A stretch of DNA of 46,116 nucleotides from a virus. Each line of letters starts with the position of its first letter. The stretch's first letter is position 1. Position numbers and translations under genes: made by a program. This document shows, piece by piece, positions 11,201 to 16,729 of this stretch. Under the pieces are notes generated by a model. That model saw only the letters and a list, made by a program, of their open reading frames with translations, was not told where the DNA came from and searched no databases. Where the stretch lies: IMG/VR virus record IMGVR_UViG_3300017783_000048, positions 1-46,116 of that record; one strand, given 5' to 3'.

Positions 11201-14200
11201 TTACGAACGGACAATTGACGTGTAATCAATTGTCTTGATTCTATAAGATGCTCCGCCCTGTCCGTTTAACTTTTCGCCACCCAGAATTGCGTATGCTACA
11301 GCACCAGAACCTGTCGAATCGCCACCTGCATTTGTGAATGTCACAGTTGGGTGTAATGCATATGATCCATCTACAGTTTGTTCGTATCCAAAACCACCGT
11401 TCGTAATGGTAATTGATGCAATTTGGTCATTAGCAGCAGTCATAACCACTGTTCCAGTTGCTTGAATATCCCCAACATTCTCAATAGCAACTGTAGGAGT
11501 ACCTGTGAAGTTTGTTCCTCGCTGTTGTATATAGAAGTCAACAATAGTTCCCTTTTCTGAGAACTCGTAGAAAAACCCGCTAACCCCGAGGTTTAGATCG
11601 CCCGTATTATATGGTTGTACACTATCGAGTGTCAGCATACCTGTTGCTGGACTCCAACCGACAACAGTCGCCTGAATCTGTGATACCGAACCAGTGACAA
11701 CTTCTCCAATATTGAAGTTTGAACCGTTGCCTGTTGACAAGTCCACTTGTACTTGTAAACCACCTGTATGAGGAACACCCCCATCGAGTGTGCCTGAACT
11801 AGTAACTGTGGCAAACTGGAAGGGGATGTTACCATCCTTAACGTTATCACCGACTTGGAATAGGGTGGTGTTTTGTCCACCAACAGTTTCCTCAATACCA
11901 TATTTAGAGTCTCTACCAGTCTCGTTTGGTTCACCCAAAATGATGCCGCCATCGAGAGTAATTTGATTTTCGTAATCTGTACCTGTGTTTACCAGATCTG
12001 GAATACCATCACCAAGACCATCAAGTTCGTCATCATCTTCAAAAACTTTATCAGTAAATACTGAAACAGGTTCTGTCAATAATTTAATAAATTCTGTTAT
12101 GCTTGTACCATCAGGAGCATCAATAACACCGTGCGGTTGATATTGATTGTTTGCCGAATCTGGAGTACCTGCATCAAACTGAACAATATTATCTTCTGTT
12201 GATGGTAGACCAGCATCAATAAATGCCAACTCATCAACTTCAAAGACAACTAAGAGTTCTCTATTATTAGGATTCCAATCATAGACTTTTGCAACTTTAC
12301 TACTAGCACTTTCAACTCTTCGGATTACTCTATCGCCAACTTCAAACTTATATTGAGAAACACCTAATGCATCGTTAGCACCATCGTCAAGAATAATACG
12401 TTGATCGTAATTGAAGTTTATACCTCTAGTTAAACCAGCAAACTTCTTACCAGTTTTAGATGTATATGAAATTGTCTCATTGTTTAGATTAAATGTACCC
12501 GAACCAGGGAATGCTGCTGTCGATTTTACATACAATTCAGTATCCTGTTCGGTAACATCCTTTAACAATCCAGTGAGATATACTGTATTAGAATTGAATG
12601 CTTGACGTGATCTAGTCTTTCTTTTCAGTGTAACTAGTTTATTGAAGATGATATTTGGAAGTTTGCCTGGGTCAGGATTGTTATTATCGACGGGAAAATA
12701 ACCACTTCCAGGATCGGTAACGACAATCTCTGAGACTTGACCTTGATTAATCCTTGCTTCCGCCTTCGCACCAAGACCACTACCACCAGTAATCAAAATA
12801 TAAGGTGCAGATTGGTAGAATTCTCCACCATCATCAACACTAATACTTGCAATCTTACCACTTGCTTGTGCTTTGGCACTACCTGCAGCATCTGTACCAC
12901 CACCACCAATAAATGTTAAAATTGGGTTACCAGAACTATAACCATTACCCTCATTAACTAGAGTCAAACCTGTAACAGATTGTGTCGTTGGAACAACATC
13001 TGCACCTGAACCTTCACCACCAAGAATTTCTGCTTTAGCAGGTCCAAAATAGTTGTCACCTTTCTTGGTCATATTGATGTAGGCAATAGTGCCATCATCA
13101 TTCAAAACAACGTCTCCCGATGCTGTTGTTGGGAAATTTATAGGTAGATCTGGAACCACATCACCCTCAAATAAGGGATCTCCATAATATCTTTGCCCAA
13201 TACCATAAGGATAGACTGGATTACTATTAGAATCTTCGCACAGATAGTATGCATAGGTTCCGTTTGGATACTCTGGAGTTACACCAAACTTGCCGTTATA
13301 TGCATCAAGTGTCGCATTTGCGGTAGTAGCATCCCAAACATGATCTTCAACAAAATCACCTAGAAGATAACCATCGATGGAAAGAGCAGTACCATGATCA
13401 GAATCTGCATATGCAAATCCATACAAGACTGATGGTGCATTTACAGGAACTGTAAAACGCATTTCTCTAGTAGTTGCCAATTGGAAACCACTGATATAAT
13501 TAGAATACGTTGTGAGAGATCCATCCAGATAATACTCAAACCCTTCACCATCATAGAGATATGTTGTATCACCAATAATGATAGGTGATCCTCCATGCCA
13601 TCCATCATCACTAGTGGATACTAAGAAATAATTGTCAATATTTGACGCATCATCTTGATTGAAAACATAAGTTTTACCTCTTTCTAAAATTAAGAATGGT
13701 ACTTCATTACCATCAAAGTAGAACTTACTATTATTGACAGTAACTGTATAGGTGACTGTTCCTGTTGTAGTTACGGTTGGTCTCTGACCATCCAATTCAG
13801 CAGTTGTTTTTAATCTGTAACCAGAAACTTCTCTGGCAACAGTGCCTGACGATGTATATCCCCAAGGTCCGTAGATGGGATATCCATCAAATGACATACC
13901 AACAACCTTGGAATGCCCATCAGTATGTCTTGATAAATCGATGGTCGAAGTATCATTAGAATCACTCTGATAGTAATCCTCCACATAATATGGGTTCAGG
14001 TTCTCTTCTTCTTCCTCTTCATCTTCGAGGGAGATTGTCATGTATCCTTCATCGCCAGCATAACCTGACATGTAGCGATGATTTTTACAATAATAATAAA
14101 TTCTATTGGTTTCATCTTCATTCATGATGAAGATTGGAGTGAACTCATCTTCATAATCACTAGCATGAGCACCAGATGCACCAGTACTATTGTAATACAA

Positions 14201-15460
14201 TGTGCCGCCATTCAATACACCGTCTTGTACAGTGCTGAATTGCATTGGGTGACCAAGAGGATGCACATCGGACGGTTGATTTGAAGCGTCGGATTGATTC
14301 CAAACAATCAAGTAGTTTTTTTGTACCTTGATATCCTCTGGGGAGAAGTAATATACTCCAGGAGAAAAAGGTCCAAACTCATGTGAGTCTACACCAAAGT
14401 CGATGTAGAAGATGCCATTAGGGAATGTAATAGGAGCAGCAGAAACTGTAAACTGAAATCCGTTAGATCCAAGAACCAGATCGTTCTGTTCAATACTTCC
14501 ACCCGTTACCTGTCTAAGGTATACTCTGGTTACATTATTCTGAACGTCTCTTACAATTTTAGCAATTTCGCCTTTGAAACTGCCACCAACCTCATCAACA
14601 ATTCTACCAAGCTCAAGATTGCCTAAGGTCTCATCAAGATTAGCAATACTAATCATTACATTGTCATATTCTGCGCGAATATTCCATTCAAATATTTCAA
14701 ATTTACCCCACTCAAATACACCATTTACACGAGCAAACTCTTCAATTAATTTACTCGACTGATGATAATAAACAGAACTATCGATGATAGCACCATATTC
14801 ATTACTATTTTTTACATAAGGATACTTTACAGTATCAACGCTAAAGTTTGTTGGTGATCCTGCTGCCGTTCCCCATTCAGGTGTATGGAACAGAGTGCCA
14901 TTTGAAAGAATACCAGTTACTTTATTTTTCTGAAATGGTCTGGGTGTTGTTTGTGTCGGAACATCTTTACCACCACGATAAACAAAGACTTGATCAAAAG
15001 ATCTATCTACAATAGTTGCAGAACCACTCGGTTCTCTTTCTGATAGGGTGTATTGTGAAGGTTTGGGGTGGTTGTCTGATTCAATACGAAGTCTATCAGT
15101 TACATTTTCAAACGTTCCTCTAGTTACTGAATTTGGATGTGATTGCCAAATCTTATTAACATCAAACGATGGAATTACATTCGGAGTTTCCTGTTCAGGA
15201 ATAATTTGTAATCTTAGTGGATTGTAACCTCTTCCTCTAGACAATACTCTAACGTGAGTAATCTTACCTTGTCCAGATTCGATAATTGGATACAATAATG
15301 CATCAACTTCTGGTGTACCACAACCAGTGATTGTTAATTTGGGAGGATTCGATTGATCGTATCCAGATCCACTATTTGTGACTTTTACCGCACGAACGCC
15401 GAAAACCTCATCAAATATGGGTTCAATCTGAGCGCCCGATCCAGGAACTGTTCTTGCCAT
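11201..15460 (-). CDS. Virion structural protein with cupredoxin-like and split YHYH domains, 1419 aa
   Basis: The name is given from visible domains. Gly-Tyr repeats occur at about 20-90, 785-925 and 1310-1400. At about 380-475 there is a cupredoxin-like domain with H400, H404 (VHPLGHPMQF) and C458-H461-M464 (YYYCKNHRYMSG), the order of a type-1 copper site. A YHYH-type domain follows: KVVGMSFDGYPIYGPWGY near 518-535 and YNGKFGVTPEYPNGTYAYY near 720-740. Its halves are separated by about 125 residues (570-697) that look like another beta sandwich without copper ligands. A run of acidic residues (EDEEEEEE) precedes the YHYH part. No signal peptide is present, as expected for a virion protein. 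It is three bases downstream of the 412-codon gene, so co-transcribed. Metal binding is inferred. Confidence 0.82.
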   Translation of the reverse strand: MARTVPGSGAQIEPIFDEVFGVRAVKVTNSGSGYDQSNPPKLTITGCGTPEVDALLYPIIESGQGKITHVRVLSRGRGYNPLRLQIIPEQETPNVIPSFDVNKIWQSHPNSVTRGTFENVTDRLRIESDNHPKPSQYTLSEREPSGSATIVDRSFDQVFVYRGGKDVPTQTTPRPFQKNKVTGILSNGTLFHTPEWGTAAGSPTNFSVDTVKYPYVKNSNEYGAIIDSSVYYHQSSKLIEEFARVNGVFEWGKFEIFEWNIRAEYDNVMISIANLDETLGNLELGRIVDEVGGSFKGEIAKIVRDVQNNVTRVYLRQVTGGSIEQNDLVLGSNGFQFTVSAAPITFPNGIFYIDFGVDSHEFGPFSPGVYYFSPEDIKVQKNYLIVWNQSDASNQPSDVHPLGHPMQFSTVQDGVLNGGTLYYNSTGASGAHASDYEDEFTPIFIMNEDETNRIYYYCKNHRYMSGYAGDEGYMTISLEDEEEEEENLNPYYVEDYYQSDSNDTSTIDLSRHTDGHSKVVGMSFDGYPIYGPWGYTSSGTVAREVSGYRLKTTAELDGQRPTVTTTGTVTYTVTVNNSKFYFDGNEVPFLILERGKTYVFNQDDASNIDNYFLVSTSDDGWHGGSPIIIGDTTYLYDGEGFEYYLDGSLTTYSNYISGFQLATTREMRFTVPVNAPSVLYGFAYADSDHGTALSIDGYLLGDFVEDHVWDATTANATLDAYNGKFGVTPEYPNGTYAYYLCEDSNSNPVYPYGIGQRYYGDPLFEGDVVPDLPINFPTTASGDVVLNDDGTIAYINMTKKGDNYFGPAKAEILGGEGSGADVVPTTQSVTGLTLVNEGNGYSSGNPILTFIGGGGTDAAGSAKAQASGKIASISVDDGGEFYQSAPYILITGGSGLGAKAEARINQGQVSEIVVTDPGSGYFPVDNNNPDPGKLPNIIFNKLVTLKRKTRSRQAFNSNTVYLTGLLKDVTEQDTELYVKSTAAFPGSGTFNLNNETISYTSKTGKKFAGLTRGINFNYDQRIILDDGANDALGVSQYKFEVGDRVIRRVESASSKVAKVYDWNPNNRELLVVFEVDELAFIDAGLPSTEDNIVQFDAGTPDSANNQYQPHGVIDAPDGTSITEFIKLLTEPVSVFTDKVFEDDDELDGLGDGIPDLVNTGTDYENQITLDGGIILGEPNETGRDSKYGIEETVGGQNTTLFQVGDNVKDGNIPFQFATVTSSGTLDGGVPHTGGLQVQVDLSTGNGSNFNIGEVVTGSVSQIQATVVGWSPATGMLTLDSVQPYNTGDLNLGVSGFFYEFSEKGTIVDFYIQQRGTNFTGTPTVAIENVGDIQATGTVVMTAANDQIASITITNGGFGYEQTVDGSYALHPTVTFTNAGGDSTGSGAVAYAILGGEKLNGQGGASYRIKTIDYTSIVRS

Positions 15461-15463
15461 TTA

Positions 15464-16702
15464 TCAACTTACGACGTTAATTGTACCTTGCATAGCAGAG
15501 TGTAGCGTACACTGATAATACAGTGTATTAGGAGCATCCATAGGAACAGTCCAATATAAAATATTGGAACTACTACCAGTTTGTCCAGTGGTATATGGAG
15601 ACCCGCTCAAACCTTGTGTGCTTTGAATTCTAAACGGATGTCCACCACCCTGAATAGAATTATCAAAGGCATAAGTAAATCCTCTATAAACATAGAAGGT
15701 AGGATCAGAAGCAGTACCAGTAAATCCAGGACCAGTAACAGTATAATCTGCGTTGCCATTTGCATTCAGTTCCCACCAAATCATCGGACTTGTGGTAGGA
15801 ACTAGAGCAGTACCATTCCAGTATAAAGAATTGCCTTGAACAATACTACTAAGATTGACATCAGTGAGTTCGGTTGCTGTTGTTGGAATAGTTCCTGCGA
15901 AGTTAACAGTTACAGCATCACCTGTAATAGATGTGGTAATATTTGTACCACCAGTAATAGTTATTGTATCTGTAGCACTGTTTGCAGTAGTAGAACCAGT
16001 ATCGGCGGCAAATGTAGCAAACAAATTCTGAGTTACTGATCCTCCGCCTCCACCATCGTCAGCAGGTTCATACTTCCCTGATGAAGCGTTATACTTGAGA
16101 ACTTGATCTGCTGTTGGTGTAATCGATCCATCAACATCAGAAAGTTTTCCGATACTTGAATATTCAGTTAATAGTGATGCACGAACATTACCAGTACCAC
16201 CAGCAGTAATATTGATATTTACATAGGGGTTGTCATCACCATTAACTGTGTAAAAATATCCTGTTTCTGACGCAGCAGGAGCAGCAGAAAGAGTGTTGTA
16301 CTCATTATCATAAATGATAGGTCCACTAAATGTTGTTACATTTGTAGTACCATCAAAAGTTGCGGTAGCAGTGCCATAATTTACAACTAGATCTCCTGTT
16401 CCATTAGGATCAATAGTAACATTTGCATTACTGGCACTAACAATACTTTGACCATTAGTGTCTAATGATGACGTAAGTTTTGTGTAGTTTGAAGATACAA
16501 ATTTGCCGACAGAGGAGTTGAATCTCAACACCTGCCCATCAGTAGCACTAGAGACATTAATAAGCAGTTCGCTGTTATTCCCTAGTCCTGTAGTACCATA
16601 CATTTCACTAAAATTGGCATTAATTTTAGTTGCGCCGTCACGGAGAGTATCACCCGAATTATCATTCGCCGCTGCACCAATATCAATAGTTTGCTTAGAC
16701 AT
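15464..16702 (-). CDS. Fibre-like protein with C-terminal cupredoxin-like domain, 412 aa
   Basis: The N-terminus (QTIDIGAAANDNSGDTLRDG, then INANFSEMY) is the start seen in many T4-like marine phage fibre or collar proteins. The middle is Thr/Asn/Gly-rich with a GGGGG hinge near 220. About residues 310-412 form a cupredoxin-like domain: PTFYVYRGFTYAFDNS, H355 in GGGHPFRI, YWTVPMDAPNTLYYQ, then C398-H401-M404 in the CTLHSAM motif and a final GTINVV strand. The ligand order (His, then C-x2-H-x2-M) resembles plastocyanin, although the last spacing is shorter than plastocyanin's. The late promoter at 16722 lies 20 bases upstream. Likely a peripheral fibre or baseplate decoration; copper binding is untested. 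Confidence 0.8.
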   Translation of the reverse strand: MSKQTIDIGAAANDNSGDTLRDGATKINANFSEMYGTTGLGNNSELLINVSSATDGQVLRFNSSVGKFVSSNYTKLTSSLDTNGQSIVSASNANVTIDPNGTGDLVVNYGTATATFDGTTNVTTFSGPIIYDNEYNTLSAAPAASETGYFYTVNGDDNPYVNINITAGGTGNVRASLLTEYSSIGKLSDVDGSITPTADQVLKYNASSGKYEPADDGGGGGSVTQNLFATFAADTGSTTANSATDTITITGGTNITTSITGDAVTVNFAGTIPTTATELTDVNLSSIVQGNSLYWNGTALVPTTSPMIWWELNANGNADYTVTGPGFTGTASDPTFYVYRGFTYAFDNSIQGGGHPFRIQSTQGLSGSPYTTGQTGSSSNILYWTVPMDAPNTLYYQCTLHSAMQGTINVVS

Positions 16703-16721: not shown

Positions 16722-16729
16722 TATTTATA
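16722..16729 (-). promoter_or_regulatory. T4-like late promoter (TATAAATA, perfect) overlapping a stop codon
   Basis: Read on the minus strand this is the exact T4 late consensus TATAAATA. It contains the TAA stop (16725-16727) of the 6757-codon gene and sits 20 bases before the start of the 412-codon gene. Function is inferred from the consensus match. Confidence 0.8.

Follow-up and report, generated by a model that had tools for sequence, protein, structure and literature searches.

Genomic Context of the Two Baseplate Proteins

A window of 46,116 bases, the whole stretch analyzed of the IMG/VR virus record IMGVR_UViG_3300017783_000048, probably stems from a T4-like cyanophage, going by its relatives. 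Two adjacent genes on its minus strand encode a gp9-like baseplate protein of 412 amino acids (aa) and a baseplate wedge subunit of 1419 aa. A cupredoxin domain is probably present in each of these tail proteins, its type-1-type copper site intact; the module resembles small secreted cupredoxins of bacteria and appears to have been inserted in phage tails (Table 1). The gene order on this strand is a 6757-aa structural open reading frame (ORF), the 412-aa protein, the 1419-aa protein and a 510-aa protein, the last being gp8-like according to its family matches. Similar DNA occurs in 292 records of phages, which almost all infect Synechococcus or Prochlorococcus, and the same order (gp9-like, 1419-aa, gp8-like neighborhood) is annotated in S-SM1.

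The 412-aa protein has the features of a T4 gp9-like connector: a T4_gp9_10_N domain at its N-terminus (PF07880, residues 3–122, E = 5.2e-7, 30.3 bits for a cut-off of 25) and gp8-like and wedge genes as neighbors. Furthermore, it matches phrog_677, annotated as "baseplate wedge tail fiber protein connector" (E = 1.8e-166). With phmmer against the PDB, the whole protein gave an N-terminal match of the T4 gp9/gp10 type and otherwise weak matches, and the whole 1419-aa protein gave none. The latter also contains a YHYH domain (PF14240, E = 8.4e-15, match region residues 658–745), which is overlapped by the ligand-less domain copy of the same protein. In the single 6757-aa ORF located upstream of gp9 (window positions 16725–36998, minus strand), the stretch GWAFDGNPIYGPYGY is similar to a segment from the YHYH region in the 1419-aa protein. 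PMC3037559 reports virion proteomics of S-SM1; PMC10665884 leaves the presence of the two proteins in the virion undecided.

Table 1. Features of the two baseplate genes in the window.
Feature	Position	Strand	Support
Gp9-like baseplate wedge/tail fiber connector, 412 aa	15464..16702	-	PF07880, phrog_677
Predicted cupredoxin domain of the gp9-like protein, residues 309-412, with H355, C398, H401, M404	15467..15778	-	Model, ligand conservation
Codon of H355, first ligand, G-H-P-F motif	15638..15640	-	Invariant, 61/61
Codons of C398-x2-H401-x2-M404, ligand loop	15491..15511	-	61/61 each; between the last two model strands
Baseplate wedge subunit, 1419 aa	11201..15460	-	phrog_708, E 0, 2205 bits
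Cupredoxin-like domain of the 1419-aa protein, residues 345-477, with H404, C458, H461, M464	14030..14428	-	Profile and hhalign
Codon of H404, first ligand of the 1419-aa domain	14249..14251	-	67/67
Codons of C458-x2-H461-x2-M464, ligand loop	14069..14089	-	67/67 each
Third domain copy, ligand-less, residues 563-680	13421..13774	-	Profile 8.4e-4; 1.7e-15 one iteration later

Conservation of the Ligand Residues

The region concerned (14060–15645, minus strand) stretches between M464 in the 1419-aa protein (codon 14069–14071) and H355 in the 412-aa protein. An initial annotation had proposed paired cupredoxin-like domains with a type-1 copper ligand pattern here, and the residues it named can be read directly from the translations: H355, C398, H401 and M404 in the 412-aa protein and H400, H404, C458, H461 and M464 in the 1419-aa protein, both in the described G-H-P-(F/M) and YY-x-C context.

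Among homologues, the C, H and M positions do not vary, a pattern beyond chance. In 61 distinct gp9 sequences (the window counted, drawn from 80 loci), H355, C398, H401 and M404 are each conserved in 61/61, a count of sequences related by descent and not of independent events, as are the counts below. P356, F357, Y395, Y396, Q397 and many other positions are likewise invariant; hence, in a protein so well conserved overall, the invariance of the ligands is weak evidence when taken alone. The 1419-aa protein is more telling. After the removal of 9 rows not spanning the domain, H404, C458, H461 and M464 are each found in 67 of the 67 distinct homologues, whereas the spacers 459, 460, 462 and 463 show the residue of the window in just 49%, 36%, 67% and 70% of them. 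The initial annotation had left the first histidine of this protein as H400 or H404. At position 400, 37 of the 67 rows have a gap and 23 of the other 30 a His, so H404 is to be retained as the first ligand and H400 discarded.

Predicted Fold of the gp9 Domain

The AlphaFold2 model of gp9 residues 300–412 has a mean predicted local distance difference test (pLDDT) score of 94.4 and a predicted template modeling score of 0.86. In model numbering, H56 lies just ahead of strand 58–61, C99 closes strand 94–99, and H102 and M105 precede strand 106–112. By sequence and model topology, this is the layout of a type-1 site: a His next to an inner strand and Cys, His and Met in the loop that joins the final pair of strands. 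The alignment used for the model (A3) consists of representatives filtered for H-C-H-M and of gp9 rows, and its invariant columns therefore prove nothing by themselves.

Structural comparison with the PDB by Foldseek gave 16 matches at E ≤ 0.001, which are rusticyanin (the best, 6.2e-5), nitrite reductase, laccase and amicyanin. In VIA-align, the model reached a Z of 10.4 with 2dv6_A (root-mean-square deviation 2.3, 94 of 113 residues aligned) and of 9.3 with rusticyanin (2cal), both above the Z of 7–8 that the tool terms common. The rusticyanin alignment terminates at model residue 112 and chain residue 155, which would put M105 on M148, an axial ligand and a residue that entry titles name, if the last strand is ungapped. 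Moreover, a profile of 12 diverse domains found amicyanin in the PDB (8.3e-6), with C-x2-H-x2-M aligned free of gaps. On the strength of the model, we are confident that the gp9 domain has a cupredoxin fold, a Greek-key beta sandwich, closest to type-1 copper proteins, and the ligand set proposed for this protein is supported by the predicted structure, its matches and the conservation.

A search of the PDB with the single gp9 domain sequence (phmmer) returned an antibody domain as its lone match, and the cupredoxins matched by the A3 profile search are accompanied by a small number of antibodies. BFVD already includes predicted structures of such proteins, where the listing gives them no cupredoxin name. 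A viral fold search with the gp9 domain model also matched "beta-sandwich" proteins of giant viruses (Pithovirus, Marseillevirus).

The Domain and Its Ligand-Less Copy in the 1419-aa Protein

The family profile matches residues 377–467 of the 1419-aa protein (9.8e-16), and hhalign aligns this domain to that of gp9 with a probability of 96.3 (E = 1.8e-9) and with the four ligands in register. Homology thus supports the view that the two proteins have the same domain, as the initial annotation had it. The third copy of the domain at residues 563–680, absent from the initial annotation, has an Asn in the place of the first ligand and lacks C-x2-H-x2-M. Since this copy persists, the ligands kept in the neighboring domain point to metal binding and not to folding.

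Several results weigh against these assignments. The modeling proposed as a check, confident for gp9, is poor for the domain of the 1419-aa protein (mean pLDDT 71.7), and the top structural matches of the latter are immunoglobulin domains (Z 4.5), with cupredoxins at Z ≤ 4.1. Its profile, searched against the PDB with E up to 10, found four antibody-type matches and no cupredoxin. For the family, no Pfam or NCBIfam cupredoxin model scores above its cut-off in the member tables seen: PF00127 (Copper-bind) matches 4 of the 12 members, with 20.1 bits for the member of best E against a cut-off of 21.2, and TIGR02657 matches 6 of the 12, with a best E of 2e-6 and 28.1 bits against 110.2. Several members also match PF25489 (At5g54830-like domain) below its cut-off. 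In addition, the phage His stands two residues before the amicyanin ligand His53 in most sequence alignments; the sequence, therefore, does not settle the register of the first ligand.

A Family of Related Domains

More copies of the domain were found in eight divergent named phages: P-SSM2 (three copies), S-SSM4 (gp9 and its neighbor), S-SZBM1, Sf-CH5, S-TIM61, AG-345-F15, the SAR11 phage HTVC028P and S-B05. In the S-B05 copy, the Cys and both His ligands are all lost together. Over 12 diverse members, with 23–55% identity to the first, the columns without variation are H, P, G, G, Y, C, H and M, in an alignment (A1) hand-picked from divergent matches with the ligand-less S-B05 domain excluded.

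An iterated profile applied to 286 sources collected 361 domains, 261 of them distinct: 218 with HCHM, two with HCHH, one each with HCHQ, FAVM and AGIL, and 38 with at least one empty ligand column. When all four columns are filled, HCHM thus accounts for 218/223. The printed examples of the 38 are mostly the second domain of 1419-aa homologues, or fragments. To lessen circularity, the search was repeated with the four ligand columns of the profile blanked. This masked profile gave 241 matches, 169 of them distinct; none of the four columns is empty in 159 of the latter, and 152 of the 159 are HCHM, next to two HCHH, two HCHQ, one LCHM (possibly an alignment slip), one FAVM and one AGIL; as the sources were collected with ligand-bearing queries, some circularity remains in these counts. 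Under masking, the ligand columns rank 4th to 7th in conservation out of 96, after a Tyr, a Pro and a Gly. Of the 159, three domains miss any of the three core ligands, and two of them lost all three jointly.

The axial Met is replaced by His in two loci (L177 and L182, ORF residues 74–161) and by Gln in another (L053, ORF residues 427–534). The change from Met to Gln at this position belongs to the natural variation of known type-1 sites, as in stellacyanin. Two further loci (L095 2968–3279 and L101 2968–3279) have a C-x2-H-x3-M loop, one residue longer than that of the window.

In a midpoint-rooted FastTree tree of 91 domains, those of gp9 and of the 1419-aa protein fall in separate parts, and cellular and phage domains are partly mixed. 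This hints that the pair did not arise by a recent tandem duplication.

Distribution in Phages and Cells

With the gp9 domain as a query, 339 phage records were matched, and with the 1419-aa domain, 217. Nine marine phage genomes have one to four matches each, that of S-B05 being the ligand-less copy. Whole-genome searches gave five matches in P-HM2, four in P-HM1, three in P-SSM4, a single weak one in S-PM2 and none in P-SSP7 or T4. The S-PM2 match retains the Cys and misses the second His.

The initial annotation had linked the domain to phages infecting phototrophs, a tie that is not supported. The domain is present in tail proteins of P-SSM2, S-SZBM1 and others, and a tail fiber of HTVC028P has an intact site. 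Furthermore, relatives are encoded at 43 bacterial or archaeal genome loci, e.g., in Bacteroidetes and Myxococcales, while the cyanophage S-PM2 has only its ligand-poor version. The domain is not phototroph-specific. Among the cellular domains, the full motif is found in 50/53, one has Gln for Met, and two lack the full motif. The cellular relatives include short proteins, and several have signal-peptide or lipobox-like starts. One gammaproteobacterial metagenome-assembled genome (L301) encodes a 650-aa tail-fiber-like protein with the domain and may represent phage DNA.

Comparison with Known Metal-Binding Proteins

The loop of the phage domain is that of amicyanin from Paracoccus (TIGR02657, PF00127), which is also a cupredoxin and the best PDB profile match. 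The phage domain differs by an H-P at the first ligand and by being part of a virion protein, whereas amicyanin is a free periplasmic electron carrier. The ligand types of plastocyanin and azurin, to which the site had been likened, are hence present, but the loop has the length of amicyanin's C-x2-H-x2-M and not that of plastocyanin. Structurally most similar to the gp9 domain, at 18–22% identity, are rusticyanin and, in three-domain copper nitrite reductase (2dv6, 6tfd), the N-terminal cupredoxin domain; they are, however, a soluble electron carrier and part of an enzyme, respectively, and the ligand loop of rusticyanin is longer. In multicopper oxidases, H-P-x-H-x-H provides extra histidines for a trinuclear cluster. 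In none of 178 HP motifs does a His follow the first ligand at +3 or +5, and such a cluster is therefore absent here.

Small bacterial lipoprotein-like or secreted relatives (L321, L324, L317, L298) belong to the same profile family and have the full H-C-H-M but, unlike the phage domain, are short stand-alone proteins. None of five small bacterial relatives scanned exceeded a Pfam or NCBIfam cut-off. Some of the same phage genomes also encode a PetE plastocyanin, likewise a cupredoxin with the same four ligand types. This is, in contrast to the baseplate domain, a separate host-type metabolic gene: open frames of 109–131 aa were found in 6 of 10 records, and the four phage plastocyanins read have a signal-like start and a C-x2-H-x4-M loop. 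Metal in phage tails has a parallel in the HxH fibers of T4 gp37 and R22Y; according to PMC11705849, these sites in T4 and marine phage tail fibers bind iron on paired fiber histidines, as opposed to a cupredoxin domain.

Possible Role of the Domain

The most likely explanation is that the domain originated as a secreted cupredoxin, was captured and now presents copper on tail proteins. A module akin to the small secreted bacterial cupredoxins would have been inserted into tail, baseplate and fiber proteins of marine phages, with each chain holding one copper ion. T4-like baseplates contain 18 gp9 chains; at this stoichiometry, one ion per chain would amount to tens of copper ions per baseplate. 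Homology, fold and ligand constraint make it rather likely that the virion binds copper. Searches of the open-licence PMC literature revealed no paper that describes cupredoxin domains in virion proteins, cupredoxins themselves being known. Should copper occupy these sites, metal centers would be part of the infection machinery in a very common group of marine viruses, a metal-dependent adsorption or ejection step would be possible, and seawater would contain a virus-bound pool of copper.

Of the roles considered, docking ranks first and a structural clamp second; lower come a redox trigger and a "Trojan horse" for copper. As the module recurs in proteins annotated as baseplate, fiber connector and tail fiber, the copper site may serve as a docking surface, the end with the ligand loop touching a partner on the host or within the fiber network; we propose this tentatively. 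Somewhat less likely, copper or another soft metal merely stiffens or braces the domain in the virion, with no part in redox or recognition. The location in structural proteins and the tolerated changes of the axial Met to Gln and His agree with such a clamp. However, the 1419-aa protein retains its ligand-less copy, and the domains of S-B05 and of another locus (L266) are kept without ligands, which indicates that the fold does not depend on the ligands; moreover, cupredoxins fold without copper.

A redox trigger, in which a baseplate copper center capable of electron transfer would respond to light or to the host redox state and thereby control adsorption or tail contraction, seems improbable, even if T4 gp9 is annotated as a tail sheath contraction trigger. 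Adsorption of S-PM2 is reportedly light-dependent, but this phage has only the weak match without the second His, and HTVC028P has an intact site while infecting a SAR11 bacterium. According to PMC7112961, adsorption is light-dependent in P-HM2, which has the module, and not in P-SSP7, which has none; this contrast of two phages with one is confounded by relatedness. Light-dependent adsorption was tried as an explanation and is weakened by S-PM2 and the SAR11 phage. A bolder version, rather doubtful, would make the type-1 centers of the connector and its neighbor an electronic baseplate switch by which fiber attachment or sheath contraction would be adjusted to the redox state at the host surface. 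Virions of abundant marine phages would then be redox-active copper particles.

By analogy with the iron Trojan-horse idea for HxH tail fibers (PMC11705849), the virion might scavenge or present copper and use a copper-uptake protein of the host as a receptor. The presence of the module in tail proteins of phages with differing hosts would fit, but nothing ties these phages to copper uptake, a host copper receptor not having been searched for, and we consider this unlikely as well. A fold retained with its ligands as metal-free fossils, the evolutionary relic that the initial annotation had also suggested, is much less probable still. The ligand-less copy in the 1419-aa protein and the S-B05 domain are such relics within the family, but H-C-H-M is kept across 10 groups at 40% identity (the 218 HCHM domains form 16 groups at 50%), in addition to the invariance in both baseplate proteins and under masking.

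Finally, a misassigned host plastocyanin (petE) or nitrite-reductase metabolic gene can practically be dismissed, as the domain, despite plastocyanin and nitrite reductase being among its matches, belongs to baseplate proteins, true plastocyanins are separate genes, and the multicopper-oxidase cluster is absent. Conversely, such baseplate domains may be misread as plastocyanin or nitrite-reductase metabolic genes during annotation. The scaffold described in PMC8115048 has a separate nirK gene, which is not this domain, and also bears a gp9 gene.

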